Positions 6,176 through 15,594 of a DNA stretch of 58,540 nt are shown here, in pieces (positions within the stretch are counted from its first letter, which is position 1; every line of letters begins with the position of its first letter). Made by a program: the position numbers and the translations under genes. The stretch is from positions 1-58,540 of the forward strand of contig CAIRNX010000031.1 in assembly GCA_903880095.1 (NCBI GenBank), given 5' to 3'. Source of the stretch: an uncultured Micrococcales bacterium. GTDB lineage: Bacteria; Actinomycetota; Actinomycetes; Actinomycetales; Microbacteriaceae. The notes beneath the pieces are model-generated. The model saw nothing but the letters and a program-made list of their open reading frames with translations, ran no database searches and was not told the DNA's origin.

Positions 6176-6937
6176 TCAGCGACTAATACCGGCCCTGCCG
6201 GCCGCTCTCTTGAGGGTGGCTAGCAGGGCCGGTGCCGTTAACAGGATCAACACACTCGTCGTGATCGCTCGGCCGGAATCCCAAAGCAAACCGCCGGTTA
6301 GGCTCTCGTACTTGAAGAAGCGAGCAAGGTTCGGCGTAATGCCTGCTCCTGGGCTGTAAGAGATGTCTGTGCCGACGCCCGCCAGAAATGGCCAGTTCCA
6401 CATGGTCATTAGCGCTCCGTATGCGAATGAGCCAATGATCGCAAAGGTCACCAAGACTGTCAGTTCAAGCCAACGTTTGTTCGATTTAGGCAGAAGCCCC
6501 GCGACCAAACCGAGCAACCCGGCTGCCATCATCTGGAACGGCAGCCAAGGCCCAACGCCACCCATGAGAAGGGCGCTAACGAAAAGCGAACCGGTGCCAA
6601 GCAAGAAACCAAAGCCTGACCCAAAAATATAGGCGCCAATGATGATTATGAAAAACGCCGTCTCAATGCCCGAGGTGCCAGCGCCGAGGACGCGCACTAC
6701 AGCGTTAAGAGCAATCAAGACGCCGAGAACCGCAAGCTGTTTTGAATCCAATTCGCCAGAGGCAAACTCGGCTAAAACCAGAACCAGCATCAGCGGCATC
6801 AACACAATGAAAGCGGTCTGCGCGAATCGGTTTTCGTCAACCGAAGTTGTTTGAATGATCAGCGGCCAAGCGAACATCGCCAGGCTAGCAATTGCTGTGA
6901 ATGAGATGACCAGTTTTGAGTAAAGGCTAGTTTTCAC
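6176..6937 (-). CDS. ECF transporter substrate-binding S component, probably cobalamin-specific
   Basis: This is a 253-residue integral membrane protein with about six to eight hydrophobic segments and short loops, as in S components of energy-coupling-factor importers. It contains GSGFGFLLGTGSLFVSALL and GVGPWLPFQMMAAG, a pattern typical of the ECF S component family found beside double ATPases in Actinobacteria. Specificity is inferred from context: the operon starts at a cobalamin riboswitch and includes transcobalamin-like exported proteins. GTG 6937 is chosen because it gives an 11-bp overlap with the upstream ATPase gene and starts just before the first helix. An upstream in-frame start at 6991 would overlap the ATPase gene more. 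Confidence 0.75.
   Translation of the reverse strand: MKTSLYSKLVISFTAIASLAMFAWPLIIQTTSVDENRFAQTAFIVLMPLMLVLVLAEFASGELDSKQLAVLGVLIALNAVVRVLGAGTSGIETAFFIIIIGAYIFGSGFGFLLGTGSLFVSALLMGGVGPWLPFQMMAAGLLGLVAGLLPKSNKRWLELTVLVTFAIIGSFAYGALMTMWNWPFLAGVGTDISYSPGAGITPNLARFFKYESLTGGLLWDSGRAITTSVLILLTAPALLATLKRAAGRAGISR
6188..6233. repeat. 11-bp inverted repeat at the S-component 3' end
   Basis: ACCGGCCCTGC at 6188-6198 is perfectly complementary to GCAGGGCCGGT at 6223-6233, separated by 24 bases. It lies inside the last codons of the S-component gene, just past the end of DoxX. It could act as an mRNA 3' stabilising hairpin or a terminator for DoxX, but no T-tract follows. Confidence 0.5.
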
Positions 6938-8468
6938 GTTTACCGACCTGTTCGGCAAGAAGGAGCCCCGGTTGGTTTGCAATCTGAGCAACCTGAGTCG
7001 GCATCAAACCTGTCGGACCCAGGATTTCTTCGGTCCTGCCTTGGGCAGTGATTTCGCCTTCTTCAAGCACATAAACCCTGTTGGCAATCTGCGCGACAAA
7101 CTCGATGTCATGCGAGGCGACCAAAACCGTTCGGCCGTTTTCTTGCATCAGACGAATAGCGGCAACTAGGTGTCGCTTAGCTTCGTAATCCAAGCCTCTT
7201 GTCGGTTCGTCGAGCAGTATCAGCGGTGCGCCCTTCACCAATTGCACTGCGAGCACCAGTGCCAGTTGCTGCCCTGCAGAGAGATCTCTCGGGTGTTGTT
7301 TCGGGTCGGTTCGGTTGCTCAACTCCAAAAACAGTTTCGCGGTTTGCCCCTGCTCAACCTTGTTGAATTTATCTGATTCAGCCAACTCCTCGGCGAGGGT
7401 GTTCAAGAACAGCAGGTCGGCGGCGCGCTGTGGAACAAGGGTGTTGTCCGGGCCAGAAATCGCTCCACCGCTGCGCGCCCCCGTGCCTTGAATGGCCCAA
7501 AGCATTGTCGATTTACCTGAACCATTAGCGCCCATAAGGGCTACGACCTCGCCAGCTTGAGCATTGAGTGAGACGTCAGAAATCGCAACATGGTTGCCGT
7601 ATCTGACCACGAGTTCTTCCACCAAGAGGGTTTGTTCGCCAAAGACCCGGCCAGGAAGCCTGGTAAACGTCACGGGCGTTGCTATAGCTCGCTTTGCCTC
7701 TTCGATCGAAAGCGCAACCGGTTCAAGGCCAAGGCGCTGAGAAAGTTCGACCACCGGTGGTAGCAGGCGGTAATCCTTGAAGGCGTCTCTGGGAGCGCTC
7801 TTGACCACCGATGAATCCCCGTTGACGACAATTACCGAGTCGATATGCTCTAACACGCGTTCAAGGCGGTGCTCGGCGAGCAACACGGTGATGCCCTGCT
7901 CCTTGGCCAGCCTGGCCAGTAGAGCCACAAGCTCGGCGGCAGATGTGGCATCCAATGCCGAAGTTGGTTCATCTAAAGCAAGCACCCGTTGACCCGCAGC
8001 CATCGCCGCCGCGATTGCTACGCGCTGTTGCTGGCCCCCACTGAGTGAAGCCAAAGGCTTATCTAGAAGGTGCTCGATGCCAACCAATGCTGCGTTCTTC
8101 GCAATTCGGTGTTCCATGTCGGTTGGGGTGAATCCGAGCTGCTCGAGCCCATATGCGAGTTCTTCGCCAACCGTATCTGCCACAAACGAACCCTCGGGCT
8201 GTTGGTTCACGTAACCGACGAGTTCGGCGAGCTCGTGAGGTTTGTAACCCGTTACATCTTTGCCATCGATGAGAATCTTGCCGCTGAGTTCGCCGCCGGT
8301 AAAGTGCGGGGCGAGGCCGTTCATTAGCTTCAGAAGAGTTGACTTGCCGCTCCCAGTGGGCCCGCAGACCAGCGTGAATTCGCCCGCCCTTAGAGTAAAG
8401 GTTGCGCGGCTAATGATTGGTGATTCGGCGCGCTGGTAACCGAAAACAACCGAACGAAACTCGATCAA
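6927..8468 (-). CDS. ecfA: ECF transporter energy-coupling ATPase, two fused ABC domains
   Basis: This 513-residue cytoplasmic protein carries two complete ABC ATPase domains, equivalent to EcfA1 and EcfA2 fused. Domain 1 has Walker A GPTGSGKST near residue 37, signature LSGGQQQRV and Walker [12 protein letters not shown]. Domain 2 has Walker A GANGSGKST near 310, a variant signature LSAGQQLAL and Walker B ILLDEPTRGLD. It powers uptake by the S and T components encoded on either side. Its ATG overlaps the EcfT stop by 4 bp. Without the riboswitch and the companion genes, the substrate could not be guessed. Confidence 0.9.
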   Translation of the reverse strand: MIEFRSVVFGYQRAESPIISRATFTLRAGEFTLVCGPTGSGKSTLLKLMNGLAPHFTGGELSGKILIDGKDVTGYKPHELAELVGYVNQQPEGSFVADTVGEELAYGLEQLGFTPTDMEHRIAKNAALVGIEHLLDKPLASLSGGQQQRVAIAAAMAAGQRVLALDEPTSALDATSAAELVALLARLAKEQGITVLLAEHRLERVLEHIDSVIVVNGDSSVVKSAPRDAFKDYRLLPPVVELSQRLGLEPVALSIEEAKRAIATPVTFTRLPGRVFGEQTLLVEELVVRYGNHVAISDVSLNAQAGEVVALMGANGSGKSTMLWAIQGTGARSGGAISGPDNTLVPQRAADLLFLNTLAEELAESDKFNKVEQGQTAKLFLELSNRTDPKQHPRDLSAGQQLALVLAVQLVKGAPLILLDEPTRGLDYEAKRHLVAAIRLMQENGRTVLVASHDIEFVAQIANRVYVLEEGEITAQGRTEEILGPTGLMPTQVAQIANQPGLLLAEQVGKREN

Positions 8469-9400
8469 AAAGCCACCACCAATGCGGCTACCGCCACTGT
8501 GAGACCGATCACAAACAAGTCTTTGATTCCCGGTTTTTGTCTTCGGTATCTGGTTCGAAGGTTTCTTGCGCTGGCAATTCTGATCGTCAACGTGAGTGAG
8601 CAGATGCCCGAAATCATGAATGCGATGGCAATCATTTGCGATTGGGTTGCCAACAAAAAGTAGGTCGCGAAAGCGATGAGCAAAATGCCACCCAAAGAGA
8701 GCGTTCGTGTGGCAATTATTTGCATCTTGGTGAGTGAGCCACGTCTACCAAAACCACGTGCGTCCATGCTTGCGGCCAGCCCGAGTGACTGCTCAATCGT
8801 GTCTTCTAGCGCAGGTATCACGATGCTATTGAGCGAAGAAATGCCCTTGCTTCTGCCGCGAAGCGAGCGGGCCTTACGAACCCTCTGCAAACTCTCTATT
8901 AGTTGCGGTGCTAGGTTGATCGCAACGGTCATCGCGGTTGCCACTTCGTATAGGGCGCCAGGCGTTGACTTCAACAGGCGTTTCGGATTCGCCAAGGTGT
9001 TAGCCATACCGATCGAAATGATGATTGCTGCCAACCTCAAACCGTCAGTTGCTGCCGCTTCGAGGGTGAGCCAAGAAACCTGACCAAGAAGGTGCACACC
9101 GCCAAGGTTCAATTCGACTAGTGAGAATGCCACCACTGAATCGGTTGAACCAGAGTTGAAGATGATTCGAAACAGCAACCGGACGCCGACAACGAATGCT
9201 CCGAGCCAAAGATAAAAACGCACCGACTTTGACCATGGCGCATTTTCGCGGCAGGTCAGCATCAGTGCAATTGCCACGGTGATTACCAAAACCTCTGGCA
9301 ACCAGCCGCCGCTAAGGCTCGCAACGGTAGCTAGACCTAACCCCAAAAACCACCAGGTTGCAGGGTGAAGTGCCGAGGCTCTAAAGGGATTCAACGACAT
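8465..9400 (-). CDS. ecfT: ECF transporter transmembrane component EcfT
   Basis: This 311-residue protein has about five to six membrane helices and a long cytoplasmic coupling segment. Two Ala-Arg-Gly-type coupling motifs are visible: RKARSLRGRSKG and ASMDARGFGRRG. EcfT proteins use these to dock onto the ATPases. It links the fused EcfA to the S component. The start ATG overlaps the preceding exported-protein gene by 10 bp and the stop overlaps the ecfA start, so the operon is translationally coupled throughout. Confidence 0.9.
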   Translation of the reverse strand: MSLNPFRASALHPATWWFLGLGLATVASLSGGWLPEVLVITVAIALMLTCRENAPWSKSVRFYLWLGAFVVGVRLLFRIIFNSGSTDSVVAFSLVELNLGGVHLLGQVSWLTLEAAATDGLRLAAIIISIGMANTLANPKRLLKSTPGALYEVATAMTVAINLAPQLIESLQRVRKARSLRGRSKGISSLNSIVIPALEDTIEQSLGLAASMDARGFGRRGSLTKMQIIATRTLSLGGILLIAFATYFLLATQSQMIAIAFMISGICSLTLTIRIASARNLRTRYRRQKPGIKDLFVIGLTVAVAALVVAF

Positions 9401-9894
9401 TTGTGGGTCACCGGCTTGGTGCTCGGTTTTGACGTCTCAGGAGACTCGGTGCCTGGCACCCAAAGCCAGGCTTCTGCGCTGCCGCATTCACTAAAGTGTG
9501 TCGAAGCCCCAGTTAACGCGTATTGCCAAGTGGTTGATCCTGGTTTGGCGATGAAGAACGCCCAACTTCCCTCGTCGTAGCGAGGTGTGTCTATGCAGTC
9601 CTGCGCTTTGGGTGCGCCGTTGATTTGGCAAACAAAGCCAACCGGGTAGGCACTTGTGCCGCGAACTTCATTGCCGGTTGCCTTGAAAAGTTTCCAGCTG
9701 GTGTCTTTGAACTGTGTTGCGCATCTAGTACGCGTGGTTTCACTCTCAATGGTTAGCGAAACACCTTCGCCGGTGCACCAACCAGGTGTGAAGCGAACCT
9801 CGGTTTTTTCTTGCGCCGCGGGCGCGCTGATCAAAGCCCCGATGCCAACGAGGGCAACGAGACCAATCAGCACTACCCGAAGCGAAAGACGCAT
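9391..9894 (-). CDS. Exported DUF4430-like protein (transcobalamin beta-domain analogue)
   Basis: This 167-residue protein has an N-terminal hydrophobic signal or anchor (about residues 5-26, ending near SAPAAQ). The mature part has six cysteines and a pattern reminiscent of DUF4430, the small beta-domain that closes over the ligand in intrinsic factor and transcobalamin. It shows a Tyr-Pro-x-Gly-Phe-x-Cys strand, an ING turn, GSWAFFIAKPG (matching the family's Trp-x-Phe-x-Val-x-Gly strand) and SAEAWLW at the end, matching the Gly-Asp-x-x-x-W-x-Y strand. It begins two bases after the alpha-barrel lipoprotein gene and overlaps ecfT. I infer that it helps capture cobalamin outside the membrane. 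The family call is by pattern only. Confidence 0.6.
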   Translation of the reverse strand: MRLSLRVVLIGLVALVGIGALISAPAAQEKTEVRFTPGWCTGEGVSLTIESETTRTRCATQFKDTSWKLFKATGNEVRGTSAYPVGFVCQINGAPKAQDCIDTPRYDEGSWAFFIAKPGSTTWQYALTGASTHFSECGSAEAWLWVPGTESPETSKPSTKPVTHKCR

Positions 9895-9896
9895 AG

Positions 9897-10799
9897 TTAC
9901 TTTTCGAGCCCAACGTAGTCGAGGCCGATTAGCGGCAGGTAACCCTGAGCAGTCGCGAAGGTGTCACCCTTGCCTGCAGACCACGGGGTCTTGAGACCGC
10001 CGTCTTTGACCACCTGCTTCTTTAGCCACGCTTGCAACTTGCTCACATCTTCGCCGGCGGCGTGCAAGGCCATGGTGGCGTATGCGGTGCCATTCACGTC
10101 AACGTCACCCCAAGCCTCGTAATGGTCGGCGTGAAGGTTGGCCTGAAGCCAGGCCTTTGCTGTGAATGCTGGCTCACTCAGTTTGTTTGCGGTGAACGCC
10201 ATCAGTGCGATAGCCGTCGCATCTGCCGAGCTCGAAGTTGTGGTCGAGCTCAGGTCGGTTCCCCAGCCGTTGTCGGCTCGCCTAACGAGGCTCAGTGAAA
10301 ATGCAGCGTCTTTTGCGATGGCGTCTTTGCCTGCTGCCTTGAGAGCCAACGCTGCCCAAGCGGCATCAAAGGTGTTGGTTGCCATCGTCGGGTCGTAGGT
10401 TGGAGCCCAAGCTTTCACAAGCGCTTTGGTTACTTTTTCGCGAAGTGGCTGGTTGTCGTAGTTCACCAAATACGAGACATATAGCCACTTTGCTGCAAGA
10501 CCGAGTTTCAGGTTGCCCTTCTCATCTTCGATCTGATCTGTGGTTGCCAGCGCCCACTCCTCGGCCTTGGTTAGATCGATGCTTGGCGCCTGCGAAAGCT
10601 GAGCGATGGCTTCGAGCGTGAAGCCAACGTCGGCCTTGCCGGGAGTGAATCCTTCTAGGTAGGTGCCATCGGTTTTGGTAGTGAACTTACCCGCCAAGAA
10701 CTCAGCGGTTTTCGGTTCGATTGTTTGTTTGGCGCAGCCAGACAGCGCAAGGCTGCTGACGAGTGTGATTGCGATAAGCAATCCAGATTTGGTTCTCAT
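9897..10799 (-). CDS. Lipoprotein with alpha/alpha-barrel (terpene cyclase/transcobalamin-like) repeats, probable B12 binder
   Basis: This 300-residue lipoprotein has signal MRTKSGLLIAITLVSSLALSGC with lipobox LSGC and the lipidated cysteine at residue 22. The mature part is a series of helix pairs with W-A/G-x-x-A-L and D-x-T-A-x-A-L-M-A spacing (DAAWAALALKAAG, SADATAIALMAF, GTAYATMALHAAG, TFATAQGYLPL). This is the pattern of the prenyltransferase/squalene-cyclase alpha-toroid that also forms the larger domain of intrinsic factor and transcobalamin. ATG 10799 has GAAGGG six bases upstream. A longer frame reaching 10910 reads through the riboswitch and is not used. With the riboswitch and ECF genes, a B12 capture role is a strong inference. 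Confidence 0.75.
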   Translation of the reverse strand: MRTKSGLLIAITLVSSLALSGCAKQTIEPKTAEFLAGKFTTKTDGTYLEGFTPGKADVGFTLEAIAQLSQAPSIDLTKAEEWALATTDQIEDEKGNLKLGLAAKWLYVSYLVNYDNQPLREKVTKALVKAWAPTYDPTMATNTFDAAWAALALKAAGKDAIAKDAAFSLSLVRRADNGWGTDLSSTTTSSSADATAIALMAFTANKLSEPAFTAKAWLQANLHADHYEAWGDVDVNGTAYATMALHAAGEDVSKLQAWLKKQVVKDGGLKTPWSAGKGDTFATAQGYLPLIGLDYVGLEK

Positions 10800-10838: not shown

Positions 10839-10899
10839 CGGTAGGCGGGTGCCCACTCGACTCCGACCGTAGACCTCGACGGTTTTTTCTTGGAGTCTT

Positions 10900-11025
10900 C
10901 TACTTTCCAATCAGGCATTCCGACTCATGCCTTAGGCATTTACGGTTGCGGGTCAGTGCCGGGTTTACACCGGCTTTCCCTGTTTGGTTGGTGAAAGAAC
11001 AACTTGCGTTGTCTGCTCAGATTAG
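10900..11025 (-). promoter_or_regulatory. Cobalamin (B12) riboswitch aptamer
   Basis: On the minus strand the B12-box core is clear: GGGAAAGCCGGTG, then AAACCCGGCACTGACCCGCA, ACCGT and finally GAGTCGGAATGCCTG. The closing stem is CCAAACAGG (10987-10979) with CCTGATTGG (10915-10907), with one mismatch. The 5' part up to about 11025 holds upstream helices that I can only place roughly. Cobalamin riboswitches usually repress B12 uptake and synthesis genes when adenosylcobalamin or a related form is bound. It leads the five-gene operon 10799-6176. Confidence 0.9.
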
Positions 11026-11085
11026 CAGGAGTCAGCGGTCGAGGTTGCTATTGTTTAGGTAATAACTTGATAGCCGTAATAAAAC
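11026..11085. promoter_or_regulatory. Shared divergent promoter region of the two riboswitch operons
   Basis: About 60 bp separate the 5' ends of the leftward cobalamin and rightward glycine riboswitches. Both transcripts must therefore start in or at the edges of this AT-rich stretch. I could not pick a convincing -35/-10 pair for either direction, so only the region is reported. Confidence 0.5.
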
Positions 11086-11255
11086 GTTGCGGGAGAGCAG
11101 TTTAAGTACTGCACCGAAGGAGCAATCCTCCCCAGAAACTCTCAGGTGATCAAACCGCAGCGAATAGGCAACTCTGAAAAGAAGGTCTCGAGACCTCGCC
11201 CAAGGTGAAAACCGCGAAAGCGGTGAAGCTCTCAGGCACAGCGACAGAGGGGGAG
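11086..11255 (+). promoter_or_regulatory. Tandem glycine riboswitch (two aptamers)
   Basis: Two successive glycine aptamers are recognisable. Aptamer 1 (about 11088-11175) begins GCGGGAGAGC and carries ACCGAAGGAGCAA and CTCTCAGGT, ending GGCAACTCTG. Aptamer 2 (about 11176-11255) carries ACCTCGCCCAAGGTGAAAAC, then CTCTCAGGCACAGCGACAGA and GGGGGAG. This tandem arrangement upstream of gcvT is the classical gcvT element, which normally switches the glycine cleavage genes on when glycine is plentiful. Output appears to be translational (see the hairpin at 11253-11294). Confidence 0.95.
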
Positions 11256-11294
11256 TTCTCGATTGGCACAACGCCAATCAGATTTGGAGAACTC
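11253..11294 (+). promoter_or_regulatory. Expression platform masking the gcvT ribosome binding site
   Basis: GAGTTCTC at 11253-11260 is perfectly complementary to GAGAACTC at 11287-11294, which overlaps the gcvT Shine-Dalgarno GGAGA (11286-11290). A nested perfect hairpin, GATTGGC/GCCAATC (11261-11279), lies between the arms. The left arm overlaps the last bases of aptamer 2, so glycine-bound folding of the aptamer would compete with masking and free the SD. This predicts an ON switch. Confidence 0.75.
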
Positions 11295-12389
11295 GTGACC
11301 CGCAAGACTGCACTCTACGAAGAACACGCGAAACTTGGCGCGCAGTTCACCGATTTCGGTGGTTGGGAAATGCCTGTTCGCTATACCTCCGACCTCGTCG
11401 AACACCACGCCGTTCGCAACGACGCAGGTCTCTTCGACATTTCGCACATGGCCGAGTTCTTCGTCGCTGGCTCTGGGGCAGCGGATTTTTTGAACTTTGC
11501 ACTCGTTGGTCGAGCTTCTGAGATCGGCAATGGCCGCGCAAAGTACTCGCTCATCTGTGCCGAAGATGGCGGCATCATCGATGACCTGATCGTTTACCGT
11601 CTGGCAGACGAAGACTTCCTGGTGATCGCCAATGCGGGTAACCGTGACAACGTTGCAAACGCCCTTCGCGAGAGACTCGCTGGCTTCGATGCAGAACTTC
11701 GCGACGAGAGCGACAACTTCGGTCTTCTCGCAATCCAGGGCCCACGCGCTGTCGAGATTTTGCAAACTCTTACCTCGACCGACCTAAGTGTTTTGAAGTA
11801 CTACTCGATCGATGCTGGTCGCCTAGGTGATGTTGACGTCTTCTTCGCCCGCACCGGCTACACCGGCGAAGATGGTTTTGAGATTTTGGTTCGTGCCGAA
11901 CACAGTGCAACCGTCTGGAACGCCTTGCTTGTTGCAGGGGAGTCGAAGGGCTTGGTGCCAGCTGGTTTGGCCTGCCGCGACACGCTTCGACTCGAAGCGG
12001 GCATGCCGCTTTACGGCCACGAGCTTGGCCGCGACACTAACCCGTTCGAAGCGGGTTTCGCCCGCGTAGTTCGTCTCGACCGTGAAGAAGACTTTGTTGG
12101 CCGTAAGGCTCTAGAAGCGCTCGCCGAAAAGCCTCAGGCGCAAAGACTCGTTGGTCTCGTGGGTGAAGGCAAGCGTGCTGCACGCGCCGAATACCAAATC
12201 TTTGTTGAAGAGGCTTTGCTCGGTGAGGTTACCTCTGGTGCGCTTTCGCCGACGCTAGGTTACCCGGTGGCGATGGCCTACGTGTCGATCGAGCACGCGC
12301 AGGTCGGTAGCGTTGTGAACGTCGACATTCGCGGCACCAGAACAGATTTCACGGTGGTCAATCTGCCGTTCTATAAGCGAAACAAGTAA
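11295..12389 (+). CDS. gcvT: Glycine cleavage system T protein (aminomethyltransferase)
   Basis: This 364-residue T protein transfers the methylene group from the lipoyl arm of GcvH to tetrahydrofolate and releases ammonia. Recognisable parts are GWEMPVRY near the N-terminus, the folate/active-site region with GLFDISHMAEF, RTGYTGEDGFEI in the middle (family signature around TGYTGEDGFE), and the C-terminal barrel ending in NLPFYKRNK. GTG 11295 is chosen because GGAGA is five bases upstream and the family N-terminus (TALYEEHAKLGA) follows immediately. Earlier in-frame codons lie inside the glycine riboswitch. gcvH follows after 13 bp. Confidence 0.95.
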   Translation: MTRKTALYEEHAKLGAQFTDFGGWEMPVRYTSDLVEHHAVRNDAGLFDISHMAEFFVAGSGAADFLNFALVGRASEIGNGRAKYSLICAEDGGIIDDLIVYRLADEDFLVIANAGNRDNVANALRERLAGFDAELRDESDNFGLLAIQGPRAVEILQTLTSTDLSVLKYYSIDAGRLGDVDVFFARTGYTGEDGFEILVRAEHSATVWNALLVAGESKGLVPAGLACRDTLRLEAGMPLYGHELGRDTNPFEAGFARVVRLDREEDFVGRKALEALAEKPQAQRLVGLVGEGKRAARAEYQIFVEEALLGEVTSGALSPTLGYPVAMAYVSIEHAQVGSVVNVDIRGTRTDFTVVNLPFYKRNK

Positions 12390-12402
12390 TTAGGAGAAAA
12401 CG

Positions 12403-12768
12403 ATGAGTGAACTGAAGTACACCAAAGAGCACGAGTGGCTAGCCATCGACGGCGACGTCGCGACCGTCGGCATCACCGCCTACGCGGCAGAAAAATTGGG
12501 CGACGTTGTTTACGTCGACCTACCTGCCGTTGGTAGTGCAACCACCTACATGAAGATCTGTGGCGAAATCGAGTCAACCAAGTCAGTTGGTGAGCTTTAT
12601 GCTCCTGTCGATGGCGAGGTCACCGAGATTAACGACGCAGTTGTCTCGGCTCCTGAACTTGTCAACCAGGACGCCTTTGGCGCTGGCTGGTTAGTCAAGA
12701 TTCGTTTCGCAAACCTTCCTGAACTACTAACCGAAGCCGAATACAAGGCACTGATTGGCGAGGCCTAA
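12403..12768 (+). CDS. gcvH: Glycine cleavage system H protein
   Basis: This 121-residue lipoyl carrier shuttles the aminomethyl group between GcvP and GcvT. The lipoylated lysine is in [17 protein letters not shown] (Lys at about residue 64), with the conserved GDVVYVDLP loop before it and the NPELVN-like APELVNQD turn after it. AGGAG lies upstream of the ATG. The gene is six bases from gcvP and is controlled with it by the glycine riboswitch. No lipoate ligase or GcvL is encoded in the window; the lipoamide dehydrogenase is presumably shared with other complexes. Confidence 0.97.
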
Positions 12769-12774
12769 AAACTA

Positions 12775-15590
<2,816 letters not shown>

Positions 15591-15594
<4 letters not shown>

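Follow-up and report, generated by a model that had tools for sequence, protein, structure and literature searches.

In a stretch of 58,540 nucleotides from an uncultured Micrococcales bacterium (hereafter the window; contig C31 of a 1.44 Mb assembly in 42 contigs), five closely packed genes on the minus strand were identified downstream of a cobalamin riboswitch by means of the list of open reading frames (ORFs) and profile searches. They encode an exported lipoprotein with an alpha/alpha-toroid (hereafter the toroid), a small membrane-anchored protein, and the EcfT protein, double ATPase and S component of an energy-coupling factor (ECF) transporter. The set is proposed, with a probability of about 0.7, to constitute an uptake operon for cobalamin (vitamin B12), or a corrinoid, in which the two exported chains would sandwich cobalamin and hand it to the S component. 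That the operon provides B12-regulated external capture for an ECF importer is very probable; that the toroid and the small protein act as a joint clamp, a view based on analogy, is somewhat favoured.

The toroid gene (9897-10799, minus strand, as are all genes of the operon) encodes 300 amino acids with the lipobox LSGC, and its ORF is separated by 2 nucleotides from that of the small protein (9391-9894; 167 amino acids). The N-terminus of the latter is hydrophobic, and profile comparison suggests a beta-grasp domain like that of DUF4430 and the transcobalamin C-terminus, in canonical order. The small-protein gene overlaps by 10 nucleotides with that of a CbiQ-type EcfT transmembrane protein (8465-9400; PF02361, 2e-8), beyond which lie genes for a double ECF ATPase, with two ATPase domains in one chain (6927-8468; PF00005 in two stretches; TIGR04520 at 3.2e-78, with 262.9 bits against a cut-off of 315), and an S component (6176-6991; start codon uncertain; PF12822, 2.9e-11). 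Since EcfT, a pair of ATPase domains and an S component are all encoded in a single operon, the set qualifies as an ECF transporter, as the initial annotation had held in placing these proteins after the exported pair. The NCBIfam model nearest to the S component is that of the FolT family, at 23.4 of 60 bits, a likeness so faint that the substrate is read from context alone. A profile of 19 of the S components found matched no solved S component below E 0.5 and no solved CbrT at E<=5; judged by sequence, these proteins group as a family that has neither an assigned substrate nor a close solved relative. In a scan of genome contigs, the nearest named relatives were two metagenome-assembled genomes (MAGs), one (L030) titled as a Microbacteriaceae bacterium and 82% identical across the toroid, the other (L031; 81%) as an Actinomycetota bacterium.

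The riboswitch was matched in the window by two models of the cobalamin riboswitch clan (CL00101), each above its gathering cut-off: the AdoCbl-II aptamer, RF01689, at 10905-10996 (minus strand; 37.2 bits, cut-off 36.5) and RF00174 at 10893-11019 (33.0 bits, cut-off 31.5). Taken alone, the window match is marginal, lying barely above threshold. Among 36 genomes of the genus, 28 contain exactly one RF00174 match (E<=0.01), in each case immediately upstream of the B12 operon, ahead of the toroid in 26 and of the small protein in two; the place of the riboswitch is thus not due to chance. The RF00174 cut-off was passed by 15 of the 28 and the cut-off of either model by 24, the matches in G016, G022, G026 and G027 falling below both. 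RF01689 also produced weak partial matches elsewhere in several genomes, every one below cut-off. The genus was divided into 29 genomes with the operon, among them G035, counted on the strength of a toroid and a switch next to a contig edge, and seven without, including G004 and G018; a riboswitch was present in 28 of the 29 and in none of the seven (p 1e-6, uncorrected for relatedness). The cobalamin riboswitch that the initial annotation placed ahead of the operon is thereby supported, as is the co-occurrence for which it suggested a genome survey.

The pairing of the two exported proteins is likewise conserved. Of 59 related genomes, 29 yielded the toroid, each of them within the window's genus, and the small protein was found in 28 of the 36 genus genomes. 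The small protein comes directly after the toroid in 26 of these 29; the three others are G035, where the contig runs out, and G004 and G018, whose toroids lie outside any such operon. This conserved adjacency at the gene level supports a partnership, and the two-chain layout within an ECF operon that had been read from the window is borne out by both the ORFs and the relatives. The orphan toroid genes of G004 (L040, 3133-4107) and G018 (L057, 4928-5923) have no adjoining small protein or ECF genes. In G012 and G017, the operons are reduced (L156, 5408-8021, and L157, 1-1994, respectively), comprising a riboswitch, a small protein with its own lipobox, an EcfT that upon reading appears fused to the ATPases and, in L156, an S component. 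No relatives of the toroid were detected in viral contigs with the toroid profile, or in plasmids at the DNA level.

The distribution of the operon parallels an apparent need for the vitamin. Genes for the B12-dependent enzymes MetH (PF02965) or NrdJ (TIGR02504) were found in 27 of the 29 operon genomes and in three of the seven others (p 0.0076, again uncorrected for relatedness); the former count becomes 26 if G010, whose NrdJ match is partial and below cut-off, is set aside. PF02310 exceeded its cut-off in 20 genomes, all within the MetH set. Two genomes, G002 and G030, have the operon and no B12 enzymes, and three (G004, G008 and G014) show the reverse; many of the genomes are incomplete and fragmented, and among these five all except G008 are less than 90% complete. 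CbiC, a corrin-ring synthesis protein, was found in none of the 36 genus genomes, and PF01497, the BtuF superfamily, exceeded its cut-off in none, leaving one fragment of 18.4 bits in G001; both families were matched in control genomes. The expectation that BtuF-like proteins would be missing thus held, apart from this sub-threshold fragment.

With respect to the toroid, a search of Pfam with the single sequence returned none of the expected families. A profile of the genus toroids (28 of 30 rows, with L058 omitted for a masked stretch and L059 as a fragment; L031, which repeats L032, was not added) matched the squalene-hopene cyclase structure 1gsz at 2.6e-8. A class-wide profile of 19 SCO2321-type toroids, exclusive of those in very long overlapping frames (e.g., L117, L161, L163 and L168), matched the same structure at 3.2e-33 and the genus profile at 2.6e-18. 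Based on these profile matches, the assignment of the protein as an alpha/alpha-toroid of the terpene cyclase/prenyltransferase superfamily is certain, at the superfamily level only; the matches fix the fold and not kinship to transcobalamin. The family of animal carriers, PF01122, did not match the window toroid at E 5, and was reached by three of the 28 genus toroids (E up to 0.1) and one of the 19 class toroids (E up to 0.01), the best value in each set being 0.0021; at 0.001 it was silent in all 246 genomes of the phylum, as it was in the controls. The initial annotation had described an intrinsic-factor-like toroid, and it is the toroid that stands, while a specific likeness to intrinsic factor is not supported by these profiles. 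The NCBIfam family SCO2321_fam (NF053823) likewise did not match the window toroid at E 1, and was matched by seven of the 28 genus relatives (E up to 0.1; best, 1.3e-14) and by all 19 class toroids at E<=0.001. A lipobox is present in 12 of the 28 genus toroids, the others inspected by eye having signal-peptide-like N-termini, and a sortase-like C-terminal motif (LPxTG/LAxTG) in five of the 19 class toroids (L106, L110, L112, L115 and L162); these features point to a location outside the cell. An AlphaFold2 model made from three sequences only was poor, and Foldseek with this model (best E 0.11) ranked a designed protein highest, with drimenyl diphosphate synthase and complement C4b among the leading matches and transcobalamin at rank 35, none of which is used as evidence.

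The small protein matched no Pfam family as a single sequence, and when both proteins were compared singly with Pfam, NCBIfam and the PDB, the sole lead was a weak SCO2322 match. At the profile level, the small family was aligned collinearly to a set of 45 DUF4430 domains drawn from the phylum's other classes over 98 columns (49-161 with 10-107), with E 1.7e-4 and an hhalign probability of 49%; shuffled and reversed DUF4430 profiles gave E 0.18-0.72. With 42 of the 45 domains, the values were 6e-4, 73 columns and 29%. Pooling of canonical small proteins (14 of the 27 genus rows with 11 other canonical domains, of which nine represent other genera and two the window's own) raised the comparison to 5.1e-6 and 86%, collinear over 95 columns. 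The homology to DUF4430 is therefore collinear over most of the domain, but no single member reaches the Pfam gathering cut-off. The DUF4430 profile in turn matched human transcobalamin-1 (4.2e-5), RUMGNA_00854 (0.0016) and the transcobalamin-2 beta-domain (0.013) among PDB entries, unrelated proteins starting at 0.039. The link from small protein to transcobalamin is consequently transitive, and not direct, because the small-protein profiles themselves match no solved structure. The DUF4430-like domain noted earlier is thus recovered by profile comparison, although the Pfam model misses all 27 members. The NCBIfam family SCO2322_fam (NF040672) gave 17.9 bits with the window protein, against a cut-off of 85, and was matched by 23 of its 27 relatives at E up to 0.1.

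SCO2322_fam was found in 64 of 148 genomes of the class, over cut-off in 49, and 29 loci were sampled. A cobalamin riboswitch match lies just upstream on the same strand in 26 of these, 13 of them above the RF00174 or RF01689 cut-off; of the other three, L095 and L105 start close to the gene, at the end of a contig, and in L113 none was found. In 17 of the 26, the switch and the small protein flank a toroid gene, recognized in 15 by profile (L090 and L117 weakly) and in L110 and L111 by reading, the toroids of these last two matching NF053823. EcfT, ATPase and S genes accompany 25 of the 29 loci. In L102 and L104, from two genera of one family, a switch, toroid and small protein occur with no ECF genes in the 16 kb stretch, and in L162 (genome G197) the toroid and small protein each lie behind their own switch. 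These three layouts tie the pair to B12 regulation independently of the transporter as well; the toroid, absent from this position in the other nine of the 26 loci and not found in G012 and G017, is optional. L162 (2953-10416) contains three cobalamin riboswitch matches within approximately 1.2 kb, one each for the toroid gene, the small-protein gene, and a set comprising a small protein, EcfT, ATPase and S component. Eight long proteins encoded beside DUF4430 genes in other classes were also inspected: five match DUF4430, most carry beta-propeller, Ig-like or List_Bact repeats, and the toroid was seen in one as a sub-threshold match (L159). Proteins of 1076-1846 amino acids in L150, L151, L152 and L153 combine two or three DUF4430 domains with beta-propeller, Ig-like or List_Bact repeats, and in L152 and L153 an AdoCbl-II riboswitch is found at or just ahead of the start of the open frame.

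The match of SCO2322_fam to the window protein was observed to be out of place (111-160 against 9-56), and in 24 of the 29 class-wide loci the order of the two halves is swapped, the second half (..YW.YW....W.ya..G....DG.veGWrF) preceding the first (..vvvDfG...C....GliCaIdGyP..C); L114, L115 and L116 retain the order of the window. The second block is often weak in single permuted sequences (E >1 in 14 of the 24), and hence the permutation was tested on profiles. A profile from 22 of the swapped loci (L097 and L103 were not caught by the text pattern that defined the cuts) aligned with the canonical relatives as two swapped blocks (1.2e-13 and 3.6e-10), and with its halves swapped back as a single block (2.7e-23). 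With the halves restored in this way, E also improved from 1.7e-10 to 1.2e-18 against the window's family, and from 6.5e-4 to 5.8e-6 against DUF4430; cut points close by served equally well, and a distant one lowered the match to 3.4e-14. Judged from these sequence profiles, the majority of the SCO2322-type domains sampled are circularly permuted versions of the canonical one. Since DUF4430 and transcobalamin share the order of the window, that of SCO2322 is probably derived. Both orders occur at separate loci in two genomes of one genus, G131 (L117 and L161) and G197 (L090 and L162). Circular permutation is known for another beta-grasp domain, the ubiquitin-fold domain (UFD) of E1 enzymes (PMC1949818), and none was found on record for the SLBB group, to which transcobalamin-like domains have been assigned, in the available text of PMC1796856 and PMC1949818 or among the matches listed in a search of the open PubMed Central (PMC) library. 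As for membrane anchoring, all 27 canonical small proteins of the genus have a hydrophobic N-terminus and none a hydrophobic C-terminus, and a C-terminal segment of mean hydropathy >2 was found in 21 of the 22 permuted proteins. A rule relating permutation to C-terminal anchoring was considered and rejected: by eye, canonical L114 and L115 also end in a hydrophobic segment, and permuted L097, which lies outside the 22, does not.

The operon is envisaged to function as follows. Scarcity of adenosylcobalamin would cause the riboswitch to permit expression, if it switches in the presumed direction. Outside the membrane, the lipid-anchored toroid and the small beta-grasp domain with its N-terminal membrane anchor would catch the vitamin, the bowl of the toroid and the beta-domain enclosing one cobalamin between them by analogy with transcobalamin, and the small domain would then pass it to the ECF S component. 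Most likely, it is the small anchored domain that is always there to present cobalamin to the S component, with the toroid, in the loci that have one, closing over it as in transcobalamin.

A number of observations weigh against this proposal. The S component is not recognizable by sequence as CbrT. Neither the genus small family nor the pooled canonical profile matched any solved structure directly, Pfam PF14478 (DUF4430) matched none of the 27 small-family members at E<=0.5, and the hhalign probabilities of the genus family alone reached just 49% and 29%. By profile, the toroid is no nearer to transcobalamin than to terpene cyclases, which are its nearest solved structures, and the three-sequence structure models were poor, with a mean predicted local distance difference test (pLDDT) value of 50.5 for the toroid and 37.4 for the small protein. 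In nine of the 26 class loci with a switch, the small protein directly follows it with no adjacent toroid (the rest of these genomes was not searched for toroids), and G012 and G017 have a small protein and no toroid match; accordingly, the toroid is not indispensable. Conversely, G004 and G018 have a toroid outside any operon of this kind and no riboswitch match in the genome, and G004, G008 and G014 hold B12 enzymes without the operon.

These same gaps lend some weight to an alternative in which no joint clamp is formed, the small anchored protein alone feeding the S component and the toroid serving as an optional scavenger that raises the local concentration of B12 and relays the vitamin. 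The nine toroid-less class loci and the lipobox borne by the small proteins of G012 and G017 would be in keeping with it, as would the sortase-like ends of five of the 19 class toroids, which may sit in the wall and not in the membrane. Isolated beta-domains of transcobalamin-2 are also present in the PDB (5no0 and others), and these are structures that we take to be B12 complexes. Separate action is nonetheless rather unlikely, given that toroid and small protein are adjacent in nearly all toroid genomes of the genus and that L102 and L104 retain switch, toroid and small protein as a unit with no ECF genes nearby.

Less probable still is the import of another corrinoid, such as cobinamide or pseudocobalamin, or of another tetrapyrrole, in place of cobalamin itself. 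No substrate was assigned to the S component by profile or solved-structure match, and a heme-scavenging ECF transporter has been reported (PMC7299338, available text); this reading is countered by the conservation of a cobalamin-class riboswitch upstream of the operon and by the co-occurrence of the operon with B12 enzymes. That the toroid is an enzyme, a terpene cyclase or prenyltransferase present in the operon by chance, merits very little credence, even though squalene-hopene cyclases are the best matches of the toroid profiles. The catalytic motif of those cyclases is DXDD, a string found in none of the 28 genus toroids and in two of the 19 class toroids, in one of which (L164) it occupies a conserved D-x-N-S-T place, and both the lipoboxes and the sortase-like motifs argue against such a role. 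The two-chain capture of cobalamin for an ECF importer remains the preferred reading.

The general kind of system is not new. Burroughs et al. (2007; PMC1796856) defined a transcobalamin-like clade of SLBB domains, and the available text of that study describes their fusion to alpha/alpha-toroids in bacteria, their occurrence in operons with CbiO and CbiQ, usually where B12 synthesis is lacking, and a proposed role in B12 scavenging, together with a proposed bacterial origin of the animal B12 carriers. As described there, the clade is widespread among low-GC Gram-positives and planctomycetes and occurs less often in euryarchaea; its main text contains neither "riboswitch" nor "permut-". The window pair resembles those proteins in its two domains, export, transporter type and predicted role, and differs in that toroid and SLBB domain, commonly fused there, are separate chains here. 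No prior work on the actinomycete pair was found among the matches listed in searches of the open PMC library, a scope that leaves aside subscription papers and preprints; given the earlier prediction of toroid and transcobalamin-like B12 scavengers, as far as that text is available, the two-chain actinomycete version would be new and its general kind known.

Animal transcobalamin, haptocorrin and intrinsic factor (PF01122 with PF14478) have the same architecture of an alpha/alpha-toroid first and a beta-grasp of the transcobalamin C-terminal type second, but in one chain, whereas two chains with bacterial surface anchors are found here; moreover, the window toroid falls outside PF01122 and the window small domain is missed by PF14478. 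The SCO2321_fam/SCO2322_fam loci share with the window a toroid and small protein in one locus, a cobalamin riboswitch and ECF genes, but the window proteins fall short of or fail to match those models and most sampled SCO2322-type proteins have swapped halves. ECF-type B12 import is already represented by ECF-CbrT of Lactobacillus delbrueckii (PMC5997447), in the available description of which the S component is itself the substrate-binding protein; the window-type S profile, in contrast, matches no solved CbrT. BtuF/BtuCD likewise couples an extracytoplasmic capture protein to an ATP-driven importer, but its protein families differ from those of the window, and PF01497 over cut-off is missing throughout the genus.

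Elsewhere in the window, a glycine riboswitch aptamer (11080-11167, plus strand) diverges from the B12 operon and is followed by ORFs at 11205-15594 (plus strand) that were assigned by reading as gcvT, then gcvH and gcvP. The 3' part of a transfer-messenger RNA (tmRNA) gene lies at the edge of the window and contig (1-105, plus strand).

In its broadest form, the proposal is that actinomycetes supply an ECF importer by way of an external two-chain B12 clamp, both in this genus with its small genomes and in large genomes whose SCO2322-family matches are strong. The beta-grasp half of the clamp would be permuted in most lineages sampled and its toroid lacking in several, which leaves the anchored small domain to act by itself; the chances of this are considered about even. 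A testable function is thereby offered for SCO2321 and SCO2322, families that NCBIfam names by locus tag only, and a candidate set of B12 uptake genes is named in bacteria that need the vitamin and show no CbiC. If true, an extracytoplasmic binding unit would be added to a class of transporter in which binding is otherwise ascribed to the S component, which raises the question of how an ECF S component takes its ligand from a surface protein. Finally, with the halves of the intrinsic-factor architecture occurring as separate neighbouring genes, the bacterial origin of the animal B12 carriers would become open to experiment.

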